Source: Nocardiopsis sp. CNR-923 (GTDB lineage Bacteria; Actinomycetota; Actinomycetes; Streptosporangiales; Streptosporangiaceae). From it: a DNA stretch of 64,000 bases. The notes below the pieces were generated by a model. That model was not told where the DNA came from. It made no database searches and saw only the letters and a program-made list of their open reading frames with translations. Position numbers and translations under genes: made by a program. Positions 3,263-22,621 of this stretch are shown here, piece after piece. The DNA lies in assembly GCF_001942255.1 (NCBI RefSeq), contig NZ_MKKC01000098.1:62001-126000 (forward strand). Reading direction: 5' to 3'. Numbering within the stretch: position 1 is the first letter of the stretch; every line of letters starts with the position of its first letter.

Positions 3263-3916
3263 ATGGATCGGATGAGCGTGAGCACACCCAGAGGCGGGAG
3301 CCCCCGGAGCGGGCGGCGCGAGGCCACCCGGCTGCGCCTGTTCGAGGCCGCGATCGCCCTGATCTCCGAGCAGGGGTACGAGGCGACGACGGTCGACGCG
3401 ATCGCCGAGCGCGCCGGGGTCGCCAAGGGCACCGTGTACTACAACTTCGGCGGCAAGAGCGAGCTGTACACGGCGCTCATGGAGTGGGGGGTGACGCGGC
3501 TGGCCGACACGCTGAGGAACGCAGTGCCTGCCCCCGGCCGGAGCGCCGGACCCCGGGAGGCGCTCACCGAGGTGCTGCGCGCCGGCGTCGTCTTCATCGG
3601 GACGCACGAGGCGCTCGCTCGCCTGCTCATGGCCGAGGCCTGGCGCACCAACCGTTCCTGGTACACGACGGTCCGGCAGATCCGCACGAAGGCCATCGGC
3701 GTGATCACCGACGTCCTCGACGACCTCGTGCGGGAGGGGCTGGCCCGCCCGGACCTGGACACCTCACTTGCGGGATCGGCGCTGTTCGGCATGGTGGTGT
3801 CCGTGGCCCTCGACTGGCGGACGCTCCAGCCGGACCGGCCGATCGAGGACATCCACACCACCCTGGCGCACGTGGCGGAGGGGCTGATCGCCCCCTCGCG
3901 TCCGCCGATGGGATGA
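3263..3916 (+). CDS. TetR family transcriptional regulator
   Basis: This 217-residue protein has a classical N-terminal TetR helix-turn-helix at about residues 20-66 (AIAERAGVAKGTVYYNF) and a helical ligand-binding C-terminal region. It starts 28 bases after the YhgE-like gene on the same strand; an internal ATG at 3272 is an alternative start. Position and orientation suggest that it represses this unit through the palindrome at 314-327. The ligand is unknown; YhgE-linked TetR proteins often respond to membrane-active or lipophilic compounds, but nothing here shows it. Confidence 0.85.
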   Translation: MDRMSVSTPRGGSPRSGRREATRLRLFEAAIALISEQGYEATTVDAIAERAGVAKGTVYYNFGGKSELYTALMEWGVTRLADTLRNAVPAPGRSAGPREALTEVLRAGVVFIGTHEALARLLMAEAWRTNRSWYTTVRQIRTKAIGVITDVLDDLVREGLARPDLDTSLAGSALFGMVVSVALDWRTLQPDRPIEDIHTTLAHVAEGLIAPSRPPMG

Positions 3917-13282: not shown

Positions 13283-14034
13283 TCAGCGGCTCAGCCGCCG
13301 CCACACCGGCCGGGGAAGCACGCGCATCACCGCGAACACCGGCGCCAGCACGCGCGGAGACCACACGGTGGTGGCCCCGGAGCGCAGACCGCGCGCGACC
13401 GCGTCGGCCACCTGCCCCGGTGTGGCCGGGAAGGGCGCGGGTTCCACGTGCGCGGACATCTGGGTCGGCACGTAGCCCGGGCGCACGACCAGCACGCGCG
13501 CGCCGGTGCCGTGCAGGGAGTCGGCCAGACCCTGGGCGAAGCCGTCCAGCCCGGCCTTGGCCGACCCGTACACGAAGTTGAACCGCCGCACGCGCACCCC
13601 GGCCACGGACGAGAGCACGACCAGGCGCCGTGGCCCTGGGCGCGCAGCCGTGCGGCCACGGCGAGACCGACGGACACGTGCCCGGTGTAGTTGACCGCGG
13701 CCGCGCGGGCGGCCGACACCGGATCCGCCTCGTACCCGGCCTGGTCACCCAGGACGCCGAACGCGTCCACGACCACGTCCAGGTCGCCGACCAACTCCAC
13801 CGCGCGGTCGACGGTCGCGGTGTGGGTGTCGGGGAGGGTGGCGTCGAAGTCCACGGCGTGCACGGTGGCCCCGAGCGCGGTGAGCACGCTCGGCGGGGCG
13901 TCCACCCCGCCCCGGGCCGCGAGCACCACCTCGCGGGCGCCGTCCCGGACCAGCCGTTCGACGACGGCCAGGCCGATGTCGCTGCGACCGCCCAGCAGCA
14001 GCACGGTACGCACGGTCCCCACCGAGTCGCGCAT
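13283..14034 (-). CDS. dprE2: Decaprenylphosphoryl-D-2-keto erythropentose reductase (SDR)
   Basis: This short-chain dehydrogenase has an N-terminal nucleotide-binding stretch (VLLLGGRSDIGLAVVERL), the LSSVAG Ser motif and the YGSAKAG catalytic Tyr-Lys pair. Next to dprE1 it is best read as DprE2, which reduces the keto intermediate to decaprenylphosphoryl-arabinose. The frame breaks near 13625 just before LSSVAG. Length 752 is one base short of a multiple of three, so one deletion is implied; repaired protein about 250 residues. The gene lies 42 bases downstream of dprE1 in the same operon. Confidence 0.85.
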
Positions 14035-14076: not shown

Positions 14077-15429
14077 TCAGACCAGGCGCAGGCGGCGGGC
14101 CAGGTCGGAGACGAGCACCCCATCGGGGTCAACCCGGTCCCGGGTCCGCCGCCACGCGGGCAGGCCGGGGTACATGGCGTGCACGGTCTCGGCGCTGGCG
14201 CGGCTGTCCTTGGCCAGGTACAGGCGTCCGCCGACCTCCAACAGCCGTTCGTCGAACCCGCGGAGCAGCCGCCCGAGGCCGGGCAGGTCTGCGGGCAGGT
14301 CCAGGGCCAGGCTCCAGCCCGGGCGCGGGAAGGACAGCGGCGCCGGGGTGGGCTCGCCCATACGTTTGAGGACCGCGAGGAAGGACGGCGCGCCCGCCCT
14401 GGACAGGCCGGTCACGATGTCGGTGAGGGCGTCCTCGGCCCCGAACGGCACGGCGAACTGGTACTGGACCAGGCCGCGCGGGCCGTAGATCCGGTTCCAG
14501 CCGCGCACGGCGTCGAGTGGGTGGAAGAAGGAGGACAGTGACTGGACCCGGCCGCGGCGGCGCTCGGGCGCGGCGGCGTGGTAGGCGGCGTTGAAGGCGC
14601 CGACGGACCACCGGTTGAGCAGGCGCGGGGGCGCCCAGGGCGGCGCCGCCAGGAGCGCTGCGGGCCGGTGGCTCAGCGGGGCGCTGCGCAGCGGTCGCGG
14701 CAGGTCCGCGACGCGCGCGTGGTGGGCCCGGGTGAGGACGCCCCGCCCGGTCGCCGCGCCCCGGGCGAGCAGGTCCAGCCAGCACACGGTGTAGGGGTGC
14801 TCGGCGCGCGACATGAGGTCGAGGCTCGCGTCGAGCCCGGCGGTGCGGTCGGTGTCCACTCGGGCGTGAGCGGTCTCGACGGGGCGGACGGCGAGGGTCG
14901 CGTCGGTGACGACCCCGGTCAGCCCCATGCCGCCCACGGTCGCCCAGAACAGGTCGGCGTCGTCCCCGTCCGGCGTCAGCGCGCGCACGCGGCCGTCTGG
15001 GGTGCACAGGGTGAGGGCGCGCAGGTGCGCGCCCAGGGAGGACTCGACATGGTGGTTCTTGCCGTGGACGTCGGCGGCGATCGCCCCGCCGAGTGTGACG
15101 TGCCGGGTTCCGGGAGTGACCGGAACGAAGTGGCCGCGGGGCAGCAGGTGGTCGATGAGTCGGCCCATGCTCGTGCCCGCGGGGGCGGTGACCTCGCCGC
15201 GTTCGGGGTCGAGGCGCACGGGTCCGGTGAGTCCGGTGCAGTCCACGACGAGCCCGCCCGCGGACTGGGCGGCGTCCCCGTAGGAGCGGCCGAGGCCCCG
15301 GGCGACGACCCCGCGCGGCCCCGCGCCGGCGAGGGCGTCGGCAACCCGCCGGGCGTCGCGGGGGCGGACCACGCGCGCCGCGGTCGGCGCGGTGCGTCCC
15401 CAGCCGGTGAGCAAGGTCGGGGGGTTCAC
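14077..15429 (-). CDS. dprE1: Decaprenylphosphoryl-beta-D-ribose oxidase (FAD)
   Basis: This 450-residue FAD-linked oxidase has an N-terminal FAD_binding_4 domain (GLGRSYGDAAQ, GTSMGRLIDHLLP, TLGGAIAADVHGKNHH at about 112-127) and a C-terminal substrate domain ending FDERLLEVGGRLYLAKDSR. These are the DprE1 landmarks, including the conserved active-site Lys in YLAKD. DprE1 oxidises decaprenylphosphoryl-ribose in the first epimerisation step toward DPA. Its start overlaps the ubiA stop by four bases. Confidence 0.92.
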   Translation of the reverse strand: MNPPTLLTGWGRTAPTAARVVRPRDARRVADALAGAGPRGVVARGLGRSYGDAAQSAGGLVVDCTGLTGPVRLDPERGEVTAPAGTSMGRLIDHLLPRGHFVPVTPGTRHVTLGGAIAADVHGKNHHVESSLGAHLRALTLCTPDGRVRALTPDGDDADLFWATVGGMGLTGVVTDATLAVRPVETAHARVDTDRTAGLDASLDLMSRAEHPYTVCWLDLLARGAATGRGVLTRAHHARVADLPRPLRSAPLSHRPAALLAAPPWAPPRLLNRWSVGAFNAAYHAAAPERRRGRVQSLSSFFHPLDAVRGWNRIYGPRGLVQYQFAVPFGAEDALTDIVTGLSRAGAPSFLAVLKRMGEPTPAPLSFPRPGWSLALDLPADLPGLGRLLRGFDERLLEVGGRLYLAKDSRASAETVHAMYPGLPAWRRTRDRVDPDGVLVSDLARRLRLV

Positions 15430-16343
15430 AGGTGGATCCCGGCGGCGACGAGGGCCACGAGTGTGACAAGCGTGAGCTGGATCGGACGGTCGCGCAGGGC
15501 GATCTCCTCGGGTTCCTCGCCGACGCCCCGGTCGACGAGCAGGTTGTAGCGCAGGACGAACACGACGAACGGAACGATACTCAGGGTGTGCCAGAGCGTG
15601 GTGCCGCCCGGCTCCAACGCCCAGAGGAAGTAGGTGACGATCATCGCGCCGGAGGCCATGGTGCGGGTCTGGGTGAGGTAGCTCCTGGTGTACCCGCCGA
15701 GCGTACGGCGGACGGGCGTGGCGGACCCGGCGGCACGCAGTTCGGCCTCACGCTTGCCCACGACCACCAGCAGCGCGCCCAGGGAGAGGACGAGCACGAA
15801 CCAGGAGGTCAGCGGTACGCCGACCGCGACGCCCCCGGCCACGGCGCGCAGGACGTGGCATCCGGCGACCACGACCAGGTCGCACAGGACGATGTCGCGG
15901 AGGTGGCGGGTGTAGGCGAGGGTGAGGACGACGTATCCGGCGATCAGGCCGGTCACGCGGAGGTCGCCCAGGGCGAGGGAGGCCAGCGGCGCGAGAGCGC
16001 CGAGAAGGGTCCCGGCGGTGACGGCCACGGGGACGGGCAGGGCGCCGGAGGCGACGGGGCGGTGGCGCTTGCGTTCGTGGGCCCGGTCGGCGGGCGCATC
16101 GTGGACGTCGTTAAGCAGGTAGGTGCCGCTGGCCGCCAGGCAGAAGAGCGCGAACAGGCCCACGCACACGAGGAGCGCCCGGGGCTCGTCGAGGGCGCCG
16201 GCGGCGCCGGGCGCGGCGAACACCAGTAGGTTCTTCAGCCACTGCCGGGGACGGCAGGCCCGGACGAGGGCACCGGCGAGGCCGGTTCCGCGCGCCCGTT
16301 CCTGCATTCCCGACAGGGGCTCCGGGGCCCGTTCAGTCACCAT
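15426..16343 (-). CDS. ubiA: Decaprenyl-phosphate phosphoribosyltransferase (UbiA family)
   Basis: The integral membrane prenyl-dependent transferase is about 305 residues with about nine helices. RPRQWLKNLLVFAAP and NDVHDAPADRAHERKRHRP are the hallmark of the DPPR synthase branch (Rv3806c-like) of UbiA. The second aspartate motif is RHLRDIVLCD. It makes decaprenylphosphoryl-phosphoribose from PRPP and decaprenyl phosphate, the substrate for DprE1/E2 after dephosphorylation. I prefer the ATG at 16343 because GAGGTG lies seven bases upstream; an upstream ATG at 16361 is less well placed. Confidence 0.9.
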   Translation of the reverse strand: MVTERAPEPLSGMQERARGTGLAGALVRACRPRQWLKNLLVFAAPGAAGALDEPRALLVCVGLFALFCLAASGTYLLNDVHDAPADRAHERKRHRPVASGALPVPVAVTAGTLLGALAPLASLALGDLRVTGLIAGYVVLTLAYTRHLRDIVLCDLVVVAGCHVLRAVAGGVAVGVPLTSWFVLVLSLGALLVVVGKREAELRAAGSATPVRRTLGGYTRSYLTQTRTMASGAMIVTYFLWALEPGGTTLWHTLSIVPFVVFVLRYNLLVDRGVGEEPEEIALRDRPIQLTLVTLVALVAAGIHL

Positions 16344-16451
16344 GCACACCTCGTGCGTCACCGCGCCGGAGGCGACGATTGAGGGTGCCCCACCCCCACG
16401 CGAAGCGCCCCGTGGGCGGTGGAGGGTGACGGGTGGAGGGGAGGCGGGGGT

Positions 16452-17393
16452 TCAGCCGACGTTCGCACTGCGGAGTCCGGTGTCCGTGCCGCGGCGCCCG
16501 GTGGCGAGCAGGACGACGGCGATGGCGACGAGTCCGAGTCCGAGGATGACGCTGCCGATCGGCAGCGTGGTCCGCAGCAGCGGCAGGTACGCCCGCGCGT
16601 CCTCGGTCGACTCGATCTTGCCGTCGACGCTCTCCTGGTTGAAGGCGAGTTCACCGCTGAGCAGGACCAGGACCTCCGCGCCGTCGACGACGACGGCGCG
16701 GTGCTGGTCCTCGACCACGTTGACGGGGATGCCCGAGACCGGCTCGACCCAGTACGTGCGGGTGATGGAGAAGACCTCGTCACCGGTGACGTCGCCGTCG
16801 CCCTCCAGACCGGCGACCGACCGGGGGACGGTGCGTTCGCCGACGACGGTGGGTTCGACGGTCTGGACGTACCGGTAGGCCTCGACGCCCTCGATCTCCT
16901 CGACGCCGTCGTACTCCATCGGGACGACCTCCTGGACGGTGGTCTCGAAGAAGTCGTAGTCCCGCTGCTCGCTGAGGAAGGGGAACTTCCAGAGCTGGCC
17001 CGCCTGGACGACCGGCTCCTCGTCGATCATCGCGTCGCAGCAGTCGACGGCCTCACCGGTGACCCGGTCGTGCCCCGCGCGGCGGCTGCTGGAGGAGATC
17101 CCGAAGTCGCGGTCGTCGTCCCTGATCCAGGTGAACTGGTCCCAGACGACGGTCTCGTCGGTGCTGGAGGCCACGTCCGCGCGGATGGTGGAGTGGGCCT
17201 CGACGGTGGCGTTCTCGACGGACTCGACGTCCTCGATGTTGAAGTAATCGACCTCCCCGACGTTGACGGTTTGGCTGTAGTAGTCCAGCGGGGTCCTCAT
17301 CAGGGAGTCCGCCAGCCATGTGCGCATCATGGGGGCCATGGCGAGACAGAAGACCCCCAGCGCGATGAGAACGACCGCGGCGATACGGCGCAT
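16452..17393 (-). CDS. DUF3068 / PorA-family membrane-anchored protein
   Basis: This protein of about 313 residues has an N-terminal membrane segment (IAAVVLIALGVFCLAMAP), a large extracytoplasmic domain and a C-terminal helix (GSVILGLGLVAIAVVLLATG). The domain begins with ADVASSTDETVVWDQFTW and has FPFLSEQRDYDFF, features of DUF3068 proteins found beside envelope genes in actinobacteria. Function is not established. AGGAGGGCAC supports the ATG at 17393. It is probably first in a unit with ubiA-dprE1-dprE2, transcribed from the divergent region at 17394-17561. Confidence 0.75.
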   Translation of the reverse strand: MRRIAAVVLIALGVFCLAMAPMMRTWLADSLMRTPLDYYSQTVNVGEVDYFNIEDVESVENATVEAHSTIRADVASSTDETVVWDQFTWIRDDDRDFGISSSSRRAGHDRVTGEAVDCCDAMIDEEPVVQAGQLWKFPFLSEQRDYDFFETTVQEVVPMEYDGVEEIEGVEAYRYVQTVEPTVVGERTVPRSVAGLEGDGDVTGDEVFSITRTYWVEPVSGIPVNVVEDQHRAVVVDGAEVLVLLSGELAFNQESVDGKIESTEDARAYLPLLRTTLPIGSVILGLGLVAIAVVLLATGRRGTDTGLRSANVG

Positions 17394-17434: not shown

Positions 17435-17456
17435 CTGGAACTAGCTTCAGTTCCAG
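17435..17456. repeat. Inverted repeat in the divergent envelope promoter
   Basis: CTGGAACT (17435-17442) and AGTTCCAG (17449-17456) are perfect 8-base arms separated by six bases. The repeat lies 42 bases upstream of the DUF3068 start and could be an operator or an mRNA leader hairpin. The regulator is unknown. Confidence 0.45.
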
Positions 17457-17507
17457 GTAGAGTACTGCCCAGTAGTGAACAACGTCACCAGGGCGTGTCT
17501 GAATTTT

Positions 17508-17521
17508 TATAACACGTTCTA
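17508..17521. promoter_or_regulatory. KstR-like operator TnnAACnnGTTnnA, site 1
   Basis: TATAACACGTTCTA fits the TnnAACnnGTTnnA palindrome described for KstR, a TetR-family regulator of lipid and sterol genes, at all fixed positions. It lies between the divergent DUF3068 and acyltransferase genes and overlaps a TATAAC -10-like hexamer. A second match lies at 21011. Which regulator binds is not known from this window. Confidence 0.55.
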
Positions 17522-17561
17522 GTGCATCGCGTTTCAACGGACTCCCGCTCTGGAAGGCCCT

Positions 17562-18881
17562 ATGGCGCCCACTCCCGCCCCGCCCGAGGAACCCGCCGGG
17601 TCCCCCTCGGAGGGCGCGCGAACCGTCACCCGGACCGTGGACCCATCGCTCGTGTTGCCCCAGGTCGACGGACGCCACGAGACCCTCGACGGCATCCGCG
17701 CGGCGGCCGCCGTGATGGTGCTCCTGTTCCACGTGGCCACCGAGACCGGCGACGCGCTCGCCCCCGGAGTCCGCGGCGGACTGCTGGCCTCCATGGACCT
17801 GGCCGTCCCCCTCTTCTTCGCGCTCTCCGGGGTTCTGCTGTACCGGCCCTGGGCCCGCGCGGCGCTCGACGCGTCCGGGGTCCGCGCGCCCGTCCCTACC
17901 TGTGGCGGCGCGCGGTCCGCGTGTTCCCCGCGTACTGGGTGGTGGCGGTGACGGCGCTACTGGTCCACTCGCGGGAGGAACTCGGATCGCTCCTGTACTG
18001 GGCCGAGATCCTCACGCTGACCTTCCCCTTCGACACGGACCCGCCGTGGTTGGGCACCGGACCCTACGGCCTCGGTCAGATGTGGAGCCTGTCGGTCGAG
18101 GTCAGCTTCTACCTGCTGCTGCCGTTGATCGCGCTCGCCCTGTCGCTGTGGGCCCGGCGCGGCCGGACGGTCCACGCGCGGGGTCGGCGCCTGATGGTCG
18201 GGCTGGCGGTGATGACCGCGCTCGCCTTCGTGTCCCTGGTGCCGCAGTTCTATCCGCAGCGCGCGAGTACATGCACGCCTGGCTGCCGCGCGCCTGGGAC
18301 TGTTCGCCGCCGGGATGGGCCTGGCGGTGCTGTCGGAGTGGGCCTGGCGCGAGCCCGGCCCGGACGGCCCCGTGCGGCGGTTCTGCCGGACCGTGGCCGC
18401 CTCGCCGGGGGTGTGCTGGCTGGTGGCGGGGGCGTTCTACGTCCTCAACGCCACCCCGGCGGCCGGTGGCCGCTTCATCGGCGCGGGCGACGTCTGGAGT
18501 TCGGCGCTGCACTCGGCGACGGGGATCGGGTTCGCCTTCTTCGTCATCGCCCCCGCGGCGCTGGCGCCCAGGCCGATCGGGGCTCCGGCCCGGCTGCGCG
18601 ACGCGCGCGCGTGGACCGGCGGGCGGTGGATGGACTCGCTGCTGCGCCACCGGGTGTGCCAGTTCCTCGCCCGGGTCTCCTACGGAGTGTTCCTGTGGCA
18701 GTTCATGGTCCTGTACCTGTGGCGGGACTTCACCGGGCAGGAGATCTTCACCGGCTCCTTCTGGCTGGACGCGGTGCCGGTGACGCTCGTGACGGTGCTC
18801 CTCGCCTGGGCGACGTTCCGGTGGGTGGAGGAGCCCAGCCGCCGGTGGTCGCGCACGAACGCGCCGAGGTTCGCCAGGTGA
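17562..18881 (+). CDS. Acyltransferase 3 family integral membrane protein
   Basis: The protein starts with a 40-residue disordered leader, then ETLDGIRAAAAVMVLLFHVA (the R-x10-H type motif of acyltransferase 3 proteins) and about ten membrane segments ending in FRWVEEPSRRW. These enzymes move acyl groups onto exported sugars or peptidoglycan. The frame changes at about 17890, 18270 and 18300. All three fit single missing bases, and the total length is divisible by three as expected for three. Repaired length is about 440 residues. It is divergent from DUF3068 and probably acts on the same envelope glycan. Confidence 0.78.
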
Positions 18882-18993
18882 GCGCACCGCACTCGCCGCG
18901 GGCCCAGGCTCCTCTTCGTCGCGCCCGTCGCCCACCACCCGCAACGGCCCCCGCGGCGCGGCCACGTCCCCGGGCCGTCTGACGGCGCCCGGA

Positions 18994-20961
18994 CTACTCG
19001 GCCTCCCAGGGGTTGCCCTCGACCGACGGCGCCATCTCCCCCACCGACACCCACGTCACGCACAGCTCCTCGGGGTCGGTGTGCAGGGTCAGGCGCTCTC
19101 CGGGCGCGGCCACGGGCACGTACCAGTTGGCGCCGCCCTCGGCGGCGGGCAGGTCGAGTTCGAGCCAGGCGTCGCCGAGCAGCAGCTCCGCCTCGGTGTC
19201 CTCCACGGCCGTGTAGCCGAGGGTGACCACCTGCTGGACGCCGCCGTAGACCCGCACCGGCCAGGACAGGCCGCCGCCCCATGTCTCGATGCACTCGTCG
19301 GCCGTTCCCGGGCCGAACACGTATCCGCCCTCGCCGGGGCGGGCGTCGACCAGGTAGCCGGCGTCGTTGAACACGTAGGCGGTGTCGGACTGCTCGGGGG
19401 CCCGCATGCGCTCGGCGACCTCGGGCGGGGCCAGCGGCGCCAGCGCCCAGGAGCTGAGCCTGCGGGGCCCGTTCCACTCCAGGACGACGTCCGGCGGCAC
19501 GGGCCGTGAGTACAGGCCGCCCTCCTCCGGCACGGCCGCCATGGAGTTGCGCACGGTGTCCAGGTACCACTGCAGGCGGTCGCCGTTGAGCGTGTCGGCG
19601 TAGGCGTGCGTGGAGTACCCGGCGGCGCCCGCGTACACGACCGTCGCGAGGACCGCAGACACCCGCGCCCCGCGTCCGGGGCGGACGCGGTAGGGGTGCG
19701 GCGGGGCGTCCGGCCCCCCGCCGACGCGGTCCCGTTCCTCACGAGTGGGCAGGTAGGCCAGGGCCAGGCACAGCGCGAACACGAGGGCGGCGTCGGCGAC
19801 GTACCGGGGGTCGGCTGCGGCCACGTCCTGGAAGCGACCGCGCGCGATGATCGTCGGGACGATGTCGGCGCACAGGAGGTAGCCGAGCAGCAGGGCCCAC
19901 GCCCGCCACGCGCGGCGCCGCCACCACAGGCTCCCCAGGACGATCCCCGCGAGGACCGCCCAGGAGCCCAGCACGATCCAGCCGTCCGGGTCGACGAGCC
20001 CTCCTGCCGGTGTGAGCGGGCCCCATTCCAGTGGCCCCCCGAGCGCGCCGACCGGGAAGACCTCGGTGAGCAGGCCGCGCAGCATCGCGAACGCGGGTTC
20101 GCCCTCGGGGACGCCCGCGCCCTCCCCGGTGTCGCTCGCGCGCATCCGCCCCAGGTACAGCAGCGTGTATCCGGCGAACAGGCCCGCCATGGCGCCCCAG
20201 AAGGCGCGGTGCGTGCGCCAGGCGCGCCGGAGGCCGGTCGTCAGACTCCCGGAGTACAGGTAGGCGACGGCCACGGCCAGGAGCAGCGGCGGCAGGAACA
20301 TCCCCTTGACGGCGAACAGCATGCCGAACACCACCGACCCGCCCGCGAACCAGCCCGCGCGCTGGTCGCCCGTGCGCACGTACCGCACGGTCCACAACAG
20401 GGCGAGCGCCGTCGCCAGCTGGAGCGGGACGGCGTTGAGCGCGGCCGCCCACCACCCCAGGACGGGGACGGTCAGCGGGGCCAGCGCGATCACGGTCAGG
20501 GGGACGAGCAGGGCCCACCGGCGGCCGAAGAGCTCCCACAGCAACCGGAGGAAGACCACCAGGGAGAGCGTCTGGAGCACGAGCATGGCGCCCGCGCTGA
20601 CCCACCACTCGAAGGGCCAGAAGGCGGTCTGGAGGTAGACGAGGAACATCGCCCCCGGCATGAAGTGGCCCTTGTGCAGTTCGAAGAGGTACTCGGGGGT
20701 GAGGTCGGAGGTGTCCGCGGCGGCGAAGAAGAGATAGTCGTCCTCGACGAAGTACGACGCGTCGAGGACGAGGAACCGGAGGGCCGCGGCGACCGCGATG
20801 ACCACCGCTGCGGCCAGGACCACCCGGTCGCGCACGAGTCCGCCGACCACGGCGGGCCAGGGGCGCCGCCCGGGCTCCCGTTCCTCCCCCCGTACGCTGG
20901 GGTCCGTGTGCGGCGCCTCCGCGGCGCCCCCCTCGCCGGAGGTGGGGGATACAGGCGGCAT
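18994..20961 (-). CDS. GT-C type polytopic membrane protein, putative glycosyltransferase
   Basis: This protein of about 655 residues has roughly ten membrane segments in residues 40-470 and a C-terminal extracytoplasmic beta-rich domain of about 180 residues. The first periplasmic loop has FVEDDYLFF, an acidic motif like that of lipid-linked GT-C glycosyltransferases. GGGAGGACGTCC places the start at ATG 20961. It is divergent from two methyltransferases and faces the acyltransferase. A role using a polyprenyl-phosphate sugar, possibly the DPA made by its neighbours, is a reasonable but untested inference. Confidence 0.6.
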   Translation of the reverse strand: MPPVSPTSGEGGAAEAPHTDPSVRGEEREPGRRPWPAVVGGLVRDRVVLAAAVVIAVAAALRFLVLDASYFVEDDYLFFAAADTSDLTPEYLFELHKGHFMPGAMFLVYLQTAFWPFEWWVSAGAMLVLQTLSLVVFLRLLWELFGRRWALLVPLTVIALAPLTVPVLGWWAAALNAVPLQLATALALLWTVRYVRTGDQRAGWFAGGSVVFGMLFAVKGMFLPPLLLAVAVAYLYSGSLTTGLRRAWRTHRAFWGAMAGLFAGYTLLYLGRMRASDTGEGAGVPEGEPAFAMLRGLLTEVFPVGALGGPLEWGPLTPAGGLVDPDGWIVLGSWAVLAGIVLGSLWWRRRAWRAWALLLGYLLCADIVPTIIARGRFQDVAAADPRYVADAALVFALCLALAYLPTREERDRVGGGPDAPPHPYRVRPGRGARVSAVLATVVYAGAAGYSTHAYADTLNGDRLQWYLDTVRNSMAAVPEEGGLYSRPVPPDVVLEWNGPRRLSSWALAPLAPPEVAERMRAPEQSDTAYVFNDAGYLVDARPGEGGYVFGPGTADECIETWGGGLSWPVRVYGGVQQVVTLGYTAVEDTEAELLLGDAWLELDLPAAEGGANWYVPVAAPGERLTLHTDPEELCVTWVSVGEMAPSVEGNPWEAE

Positions 20962-21010
20962 GGACGTCCTCCCGGCCCAGATTGGCCAACCCACGACAGG
21001 GGTGTCAGAA

Positions 21011-21024
21011 TACAACACGTTCCA
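21011..21024. promoter_or_regulatory. KstR-like operator TnnAACnnGTTnnA, site 2
   Basis: TACAACACGTTCCA matches the same palindrome as the site at 17508 and shares the core AACACGTTC with it. It lies between the divergent GT-C and methyltransferase genes and overlaps a TACAAC -10-like hexamer. The shared site suggests co-regulation of the envelope cluster. Confidence 0.55.
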
Positions 21025-21116: not shown

Positions 21117-21872
21117 GTGGAGGTGATGTCGGTGGGGCTCGAACAGGTCCGCCGCGACTGGACCCGGCTGGGTTCCACCGAGCCGCTGTGGGCGGTGTGC
21201 GTGGATCCGGCCAAGCGCGACGGAGGGTGGGACGACGACGAGTTCCTCGCCTCCGGCGCGGCCGAGATCGAACCGGCCCTCGCCCGCCTCCGTGAACTGG
21301 GCATCCACCCGGACAGCGGCCGTGTCCTGGACTTCGGCTGCGGCGCGGGGCGGCTGTCCAACGCGCTGGCCGCGCACTTCGACCGGGTCGTCGGCGTGGA
21401 CATCTCCGCGCCCATGCTCGCCGAGGCGCGGCGGCTCGACCGCTCGGGGGGTCGGATCACGTTCCAGTTGAACGAGCGGCCCGACCTGTCGGCCCTCGAC
21501 GACGACTCCTTCGACCTCGTCTACACCGACCTCGTCCTCCAGCACCTGCCGCCCGACCTGGCCGACGGCTACCTGCGCGAGTTCGCCCGCGTCGTGCGGC
21601 CCGGCGGGGCCATGGTGATCGGCGTTCCCGAGTCCGAGCGCCGCACGTTCAAGGGCATGGTCTTCCGGTACGCCCCGTTCCCGCTCATCCGCCTGGCCCA
21701 ACGCGTGATCCTGCGGTACCCGGCGCCGATGCGCATGCACACCCTCGCCACCGAACGCGTGGCCGCACAGGTGCCCGGCGGCCGGATCGTCGCCTCCGAC
21801 AAGTACTGGGGCGGCGACCACTGGCGACACCTGCGCCACTTCATCACCATGGACGGGAAGGCCTCCGGATGA
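21117..21872 (+). CDS. Class I SAM-dependent methyltransferase
   Basis: The 251-residue protein has a Rossmann methyltransferase core: motif I VLDFGCGAGRLSNAL, an acidic ribose-binding end VVGVDIS, motif II DLVYTDLVLQHLP and post-motif VRPGGAMVIGVPE. The start is uncertain. GTG 21117 has GGGAG about nine bases upstream; ATG 21126 is possible but too close to GGAGG. It overlaps the next methyltransferase by four bases. The acceptor is unknown, probably a sugar or lipid of the envelope cluster. Confidence 0.8.
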   Translation: MEVMSVGLEQVRRDWTRLGSTEPLWAVCVDPAKRDGGWDDDEFLASGAAEIEPALARLRELGIHPDSGRVLDFGCGAGRLSNALAAHFDRVVGVDISAPMLAEARRLDRSGGRITFQLNERPDLSALDDDSFDLVYTDLVLQHLPPDLADGYLREFARVVRPGGAMVIGVPESERRTFKGMVFRYAPFPLIRLAQRVILRYPAPMRMHTLATERVAAQVPGGRIVASDKYWGGDHWRHLRHFITMDGKASG

Positions 21873-22621
21873 CGGCCCGCCCCGACCGCACGGTCCCCTT
21901 CCGCGCCACGCTCGGCCGGTCGGTCGCGCTGTTCACGGCCTTCCGCAGGGAACAGACCGATCCGGCGTACTTCTACGGACTGCTGGCCCGCGACACCGTC
22001 GCCCAGCTGCGCTCGTACACGCCCCTGGACGGGCGGCTGGTGGTCGACGTCGGGGGCGGGCCCGGATACTTCGCCGACGAACTACGCGCCGCCGGGGCGC
22101 GGTGCCTGTGCGTGGACGCCGACGCGCACGAGATGCGGCTGCACGGTCGACAGGCCGACAGCCACGGCGTGCAGGGCAGCGCGCTCGCCCTGCCGCTGCG
22201 CGACGGTTCGGTGGACGTGTGCTTCTCCTCCAACGTCCTCGAACACGTCCCCGACCGGGTCCGCATGGCCGACGAGATGGTCCGCGTGACGCGGCCCGGC
22301 GGACTCGTGTACCTGTCGTACACCCTCTGGCTGTCCCCGTGGGGCGGCCACGAGACCTCCCCCTGGCACTACCTGGGCGGTTCCTACGCGGCCGAGCGGT
22401 TCGCGCGCAAGCACGGACGGCGGCCCAAGAACGACTTCGGGCGATCGATGTACGCCGCCCACGCCAAGGAGATGCTCGACTGGACCCGCGGGCGGACCGA
22501 CGTGGACGTGATCGACATCCGCCCGCGCTACCTGCCGACCTGGACGAAGCCGGTCGTCCACGTGCCGCTCCTGCGCGAGATCGTCACGTGGAACCTGCTC
22601 CTGGTCCTGCGCAGGCGGTGA
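21869..22621 (+). CDS. Class I SAM-dependent methyltransferase
   Basis: The 250-residue protein has motif I VVDVGGGPGYFADEL, CVDAD, SNVLEHVPD and VRVTRPGGLVYLSY. It is translationally coupled (ATGA) to the preceding methyltransferase. The C-terminal part (HETSPWHYLGG, YLPTWTKPVVHVPLLREI) is typical of actinobacterial sugar or glycolipid methyltransferases near envelope genes. Substrate unknown. Confidence 0.82.
   Translation: MTARPDRTVPFRATLGRSVALFTAFRREQTDPAYFYGLLARDTVAQLRSYTPLDGRLVVDVGGGPGYFADELRAAGARCLCVDADAHEMRLHGRQADSHGVQGSALALPLRDGSVDVCFSSNVLEHVPDRVRMADEMVRVTRPGGLVYLSYTLWLSPWGGHETSPWHYLGGSYAAERFARKHGRRPKNDFGRSMYAAHAKEMLDWTRGRTDVDVIDIRPRYLPTWTKPVVHVPLLREIVTWNLLLVLRRR

Follow-up and report, generated by a model that had tools for sequence, protein, structure and literature searches.

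KstR, a TetR-type repressor of cholesterol genes, is released by a steroid coenzyme A (CoA) thioester. Its mycobacterial operator, as given in passages of PMC1995591, follows the consensus TnnAACnnGTTnnA, a 14-bp palindrome that often lies between divergent genes. According to passages of PMC9678360, the envelope protein PgfA is essential in mycobacteria, and a corynebacterial homologue has been proposed to take part in lipoarabinomannan synthesis; mycobacterial DprE1 is described in literature excerpts as a drug target. In a 64,000-nt stretch of Nocardiopsis sp. CNR-923 (NZ_MKKC01000098.1, positions 62,001-126,000; hereafter the window), two palindromic boxes of the KstR type, site 1 and site 2, lie between divergent genes of a cluster that includes pgfA and dprE1, and suggest that a relative of the cholesterol-gene repressor now works on cell-wall genes.

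With a probability of about 0.72, we read both boxes as operators of a KstR-type TetR repressor, the protein most likely to bind them being a KstR relative, named KLR, encoded at C67:9218-9841 of the same genome (G000; 5.55 Mb, a draft assembly at 91% completeness) and predicted to control both divergent promoter pairs. When the full-text literature was searched for KstR and Nocardiopsis together, the only match, as excerpted, concerned a Micromonospora strain.

Results

Two rare and conserved boxes

A sequence-only reading of the window had pointed to two palindromes, at 17508 and 21011, that fit a shared pattern and stand between divergent genes. Both points hold: TATAACACGTTCTA (site 1) and TACAACACGTTCCA (site 2) are the sole matches to TNNAACNNGTTNNA in the window, the former lying in the intergenic region between pgfA and an acyltransferase gene, the latter between a putative GT-C glycosyltransferase gene and a methyltransferase gene. 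The expectation that such a pattern would occur by chance less than once per window was confirmed by 100 dinucleotide shuffles of the 64-kb sequence, which gave a mean of 0.06 matches and in no case two, and the common core AACACGTTC is likewise present only twice, with 0.21 occurrences expected and two reached in 2 of the 100 shuffles. A chance origin was rejected on the basis of the 0.06 matches expected and of the place of the boxes being kept in the named loci described below.

The nearest named relatives belong to Nocardiopsis; for N. lucentensis and strain FIRDI 009, the pgfA match is at 87-88%. Among 23 named loci, at least one of which (L313) is placed in another genus by the genome collection, the site 1 form TAGAACNNGTTATA was found 115-178 bp upstream of pgfA in all 23, and the site 2 form TGGAACNNGTTGTA 3.5-5.6 kb upstream of pgfA in all 20 that extend far enough, the remaining three being too short to reach it. 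When these loci and the window were aligned without gaps (24 rows), 13 of the 14 columns of the site 1 box proved invariant and only the centre varied, with GT in 16 rows, CT in 8, and further centres in other genera, whereas of the 60 columns in either flank, 1 was invariant towards the acyltransferase gene and 17 were invariant towards pgfA. The weaker box beside site 1 carries one mismatch in 14 rows, two in 2 rows, and four to six in 8, and is perfect in none.

The proposed likeness to KstR sites is also upheld, in that the motif is the published operator consensus, as excerpted, its positions are kept in the named Nocardiopsis, and a KstR-related TetR is present in the genome. The idea of a genome-wide scan with the pattern had a mixed outcome. 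Judged against a reversed-pattern control, TNNAACNNGTTNNA is enriched, with 26 places versus 8, and 16 of the 24 matches outside the window fall inside open reading frames (ORFs) and 8 outside, as assigned by a crude ORF caller, so that the loose pattern is not diagnostic by itself, a weakness that the sequence-only reading had named among its possible refutations, and was rejected as a predictor of a genome-wide regulon. The narrower form TRGAACNNGTTRTA occurs at three places versus 0 in the control, namely site 1, site 2, and an intergenic site on contig C75. This third strong box (G000:C75:130540-130553; L009) is kept within the genus (relatives L093-L101) and lies between a GDSL-hydrolase gene and the gene of a probable membrane protein of 321 aa with a Pfam match below the cut-off. 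More box-like palindromes were seen in some Nocardiopsis, either close to a secA-like gene or ahead of an ATP-synthase-like gene (L102-L108, L109-L111; genes named by eye).

KLR, a relative of KstR

As a positive control, we used G148, a genome that we label mycobacterium-like, whose KstR matches PDB 5ua2 at 5e-118 and which carries 23 boxes of the form TRKAACNNGTTMYA versus 7 reversed, nine of which fall within a single 77-kb region containing its kstR and KstD genes. Queried with this KstR, the window genome returned one outstanding TetR, KLR, at 2.9e-23, followed by the next best at 6e-8, and such a match was present in 29 of the 31 Nocardiopsis genomes of our genus sample, G135 and G136 being those without it. 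In the family sample of 120 genomes, a KLR query found a match at E<=1e-20 in 105, which in some of them, sister genera included, is KstR itself.

Phylogeny supports this kinship. The window genome has 66 TetR_N matches, of which 30 were fetched and 28 entered the tree (one was too short and one was KLR itself) together with 11 KLR rows left after thinning; the other 36 lie outside that tree, and the KstR similarity search covered the whole genome. KLR and KstR formed one clade (100/100) apart from the 28 other TetRs, and their join had values of 87/74 in a second tree of 9 KLR rows and 9 TetRs of the window genome, to which the TetR of PDB 3bjb and a second KstR-like copy from genome G132 had been added. 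Of 56 core residues, KLR has 32 in common with KstR, against 23 for the best other TetR of the genome, and its recognition stretch, the QMRxVAxRAxVAxGTLYRYFPSK region, is almost identical to that of KstR.

KstR-type proteins, pgfA, and boxes across the family

In three sister genera, represented by G116 and G053 (same genus), G032, and G074, the KstR gene lies tail-to-tail with pgfA, and in a fourth, G013, it is on the same 20-kb locus. All five genomes have a box upstream of KstR, and G116, G032, G074, and G013 also have one upstream of pgfA, with none found in 1 kb of sequence upstream of pgfA in G053; G116 and G032 each have an acyl-CoA dehydrogenase gene as the divergent neighbour. The KstR of G116 (L256) exceeds the cut-off of the curated KstR model NF033703 (316.1 versus 280 bits), and those of G053, G032, G074, and G013 were assigned by tree, in which they group with the G148 KstR (83/95). 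A box likewise stands upstream of KLR in G023, and G102, G073, G008, and G021 show the order KLR, box, and a thiolase over the steroid thiolase cut-off. A box resembling these is also present at a distance of about 19-26 kb from pgfA in several sister genera.

KstR-type boxes at pgfA thus recur in the family, tied to the presence of a KstR-type protein. Our sample comprised 50 pgfA upstream regions of our own choosing, 30 of them loci from one pgfA search (among the matches listed) and 20 others, and a box within about 420-450 bp upstream of pgfA was found in 17 of 37 regions from KLR-positive genomes versus 0 of 13 from seven KLR-negative genomes; the Fisher p of 0.002 overstates the support, given the relatedness of the genomes and a completeness below 75% in two of the seven that are KLR-negative. 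Paralogy is common for this gene: the window genome has a second pgfA (G000:C75:119315-120187), and of the 96 family genomes in which pgfA was matched at all, 73 have at least two by our own count.

Several observations weigh against KLR as the binder. It stays well under the curated KstR cut-off (120.2 versus 280 bits), and since it also falls in a clade of its own, KLR is a member of a KstR sister clade and not KstR. No box, even with a relaxed pattern, was found in the 29 KLR loci of the genus (L162-L190, some cut short), so there is no visible sign that KLR controls its own gene through this motif within the genus; L273 has no such box either. The remaining 20 of the 37 KLR-positive regions are box-less; for five of these (G021, G076, G007, G046, and G113), a box stands instead at the other pgfA of the same genome, and for 15 none was found at another pgfA. 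Many deeper genera are KLR-positive and have no pgfA box, and G140 has KLR and no TRKAACNNGTTMYA match. Conversely, the TRGAACNNGTTRTA pattern matches five times in G111, which lacks KLR, with no match ahead of the two pgfA genes examined there; in G135 (85% complete), KLR is missing, and both its usual neighbour gene and the box at pgfA are present; and G136, given as 100% complete, has no KLR and carries boxes that match in sequence form, although its lack of the KLR neighbour gene as well makes a gap indistinguishable from loss of the segment.

That G135 and G136 keep boxes with KLR undetected, and that the window genome has so many TetR_N matches, are also what one would expect if the boxes were operators of another TetR, an explanation we regard as improbable. 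Of the 28 TetRs compared, none comes close to KstR in the recognition region, and the whole-genome KstR search found no rival near the score of KLR. A specific candidate is the TetR_C_7 (AefR-like) regulator whose gene adjoins dprE2 in some relatives: a TetR gene is near the cluster in at least L113, L114, L116, L120, and L122, with the domain identified in L113. No such TetR is among the ORFs listed by the crude caller for the 20-kb loci L115, L118, L119, and L121, where both boxes are present, and in the window it matches best, at 30%, a different TetR at 3263-3916. As it is unseen near several box-bearing clusters, we set this candidate aside as unlikely.

Promoter context of site 1

On the pgfA side of site 1, the alignment keeps a block, ATTCnGaCACGCC..GGTGACG..gttCACTACTG, that we take to be the probable pgfA promoter; a sigma-70 scan gave no match to it. 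With this assignment, transcription of pgfA would start about 60 bp downstream of site 1. Because it is 40 bp from the acyltransferase start and well upstream of the putative pgfA promoter, site 1 may have more influence on the acyltransferase than on pgfA, on which its effect could be weaker or even positive.

This arrangement also bears on whether the box is itself a core promoter element, either the -10 of the divergent genes or an alternative sigma site, with an incidental palindrome. TATAAC and TACAAC do resemble -10 hexamers, and a promoter-like block is conserved alongside the box. The sequence-only reading had each box overlap a -10-like hexamer, which was not confirmed: the sigma-70 scan found no promoter-like pair at either site, and there is no matching -35. 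The half-sites are symmetric and invariant around a variable centre, an imperfect second box stands in register 15 bp away in 14 of the 24 rows, and the same box occurs upstream of KstR genes in other genera, which together make a core promoter element quite unlikely.

Steroid catabolism markers

Two steroid markers were searched, KstD (E<=1e-20) and one thiolase family (curated cut-off), and neither was found in the window genome at its 91% completeness. KstD at this threshold is absent from 10 of the 14 Nocardiopsis genomes searched, the window genome included; weak partial matches occur in three, and G132 has a 47% homologue. Of 27 genomes, 11 have the thiolase above its cut-off, G132 being the sole one of the 14 Nocardiopsis to do so. 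Thus, in most Nocardiopsis genomes tested, the two markers were not found and KLR and the envelope boxes remain. G032, G116, G053, and G013 do have KstD, at 56-57% identity; it was not found in G102, G073, G008, and G021 despite their KLR-box-thiolase order. The second KstR-like copy of G132 (L335, C1:1-6000), of the 3bjb type, is divergent from the KstD homologue, with the steroid thiolase elsewhere and no box in the 6 kb read around it; this genome has perhaps acquired a steroid pathway.

The lack of both markers in the window genome would suit boxes that are unused relics of an ancestral steroid catabolism, a very unlikely case given that the boxes are conserved almost perfectly across named species while the acyltransferase-side flank drifted, and that KLR persists with an intact DNA-binding domain in 29 of the 31 genus genomes.

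Genes around the boxes

Table 1. Boxes, promoter features, and neighbouring genes in the window
Feature	Position	Strand	Evidence
Site 1, KstR-type box TATAACACGTTCTA (pgfA sense TAGAACGTGTTATA)	17508..17521	.	pattern match, 23/23 named loci
Second, weaker box TGCATCGCGTTTCA, one mismatch, in register with site 1, centres 15 bp apart	17523..17536	.	alignment
Site 2, KstR-type box TACAACACGTTCCA (GT-C sense TGGAACGTGTTGTA)	21011..21024	.	pattern match, 20/20 named loci with flank
Conserved putative pgfA promoter block after the box; predicted -35 GTGACG, -10 TACTCT, 18 bp apart	17457..17507	-	alignment; hexamers by inference
Hairpin in pgfA leader, CTGGAACTGAAGCTAGTTCCAG, perfect 9-bp, largely kept in named relatives	17435..17456	-	alignment
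pgfA, DUF3068/PorA-type envelope lipid-trafficking protein	16452..17393	-	PF11271 E 1.6e-80; NF053601 314.2 bits vs cut-off 160
ubiA-type decaprenyl-phosphate phosphoribosyltransferase (DPPR synthase)	15426..16361	-	NF008978 383.5 bits vs cut-off 207
dprE1, decaprenylphosphoryl-ribose oxidase	14077..15429	-	NF053785 574.7 bits vs cut-off 500
dprE2-like short-chain dehydrogenase (SDR), frame broken here, whole in a relative	13286..14034	-	relative comparison
Acyltransferase-3 gene, divergent from pgfA, frame broken twice, whole in relative L113	17562..18881	+	PF01757 E 2.2e-28 in L113
Membrane glycosyltransferase, probable GT-C type, C-terminal beta domain, 655 aa	18994..20961	-	weak model, fold comparison
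S-adenosylmethionine (SAM) methyltransferase, divergent from GT-C gene	21126..21872	+	PF13649 E 2.2e-21
Second SAM methyltransferase, 4-base overlap with the first	21869..22621	+	PF08241 E 2.7e-20

Downstream of pgfA and on the same strand, ubiA, dprE1, and the SDR gene, which from its position is presumably dprE2, make up a set of genes for decaprenyl-phosphate-arabinose (DPA) synthesis. The broken frames of the acyltransferase and dprE2 genes are likely an assembly error, because both are whole in a relative and a gene beside KLR is split too. The 655-aa protein had no Pfam or NCBIfam match, and a further sequence search gave no significant result; its model (pLDDT 61) has ArnT, ALG12, EmbB, and AftD as nearest solved folds, at low TM-score. 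From this model, it is likely a GT-C type transferase of sugars from lipid phosphates, and a role as an arabinofuranosyltransferase is only a suggestion.

Discussion

Repression by KLR is the simplest mechanism that we can propose for these boxes. A KLR dimer would bind each 14-bp box, acting at site 1 on the putative pgfA-ubiA-dprE1-dprE2 operon, and thereby on envelope lipid trafficking and the supply of decaprenyl-phosphate-arabinose, and/or on the acyltransferase, and at site 2 on the GT-C glycosyltransferase and the two methyltransferases. A ligand on KLR would lift this control, perhaps an acyl-CoA, by analogy with KstR.

A broader and decidedly tentative scenario is that the KstR sister clade was recruited from steroid catabolism to envelope building, Nocardiopsis having lost the catabolic half of the regulon and kept the half serving PgfA and the arabinofuranose donor, so that a lipid-derived CoA signal might set envelope glycolipid assembly. 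KstR-type regulators and their boxes are widespread in a second actinomycete family, and in a genus mostly without detected KstD the boxes mark pgfA and genes of the DprE1 pathway. If true, the proposed control would amount to a small, testable regulon of three strong boxes joining lipid sensing to envelope assembly in easily handled bacteria.

Comparison with known systems

The pgfA product belongs to the same family as mycobacterial and corynebacterial PgfA/LmcA, its NF053601 score being over the cut-off, and differs in its setting, as here a KstR-type box precedes pgfA, which is followed by a series of DPA-synthesis genes, whereas PMC9678360, as excerpted, names KstR 0 times. The TetR of PDB 3bjb and the second KstR-like copy of G132 have GTLYRYFPSK in common with KLR, but form a separate clade (98/91) outside KLR plus KstR. 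The differences from mycobacterial KstR are that KLR scores under the KstR cut-off and has no box of its own in the genus, and that the window genome yielded no KstD at the threshold given above. The same 14-bp palindrome and a related TetR with the QMRxVAxRAxVAxGTLYRYFPSK region are nonetheless present here, flanked by pgfA, DPA-synthesis, acyltransferase, GT-C, and methyltransferase genes.

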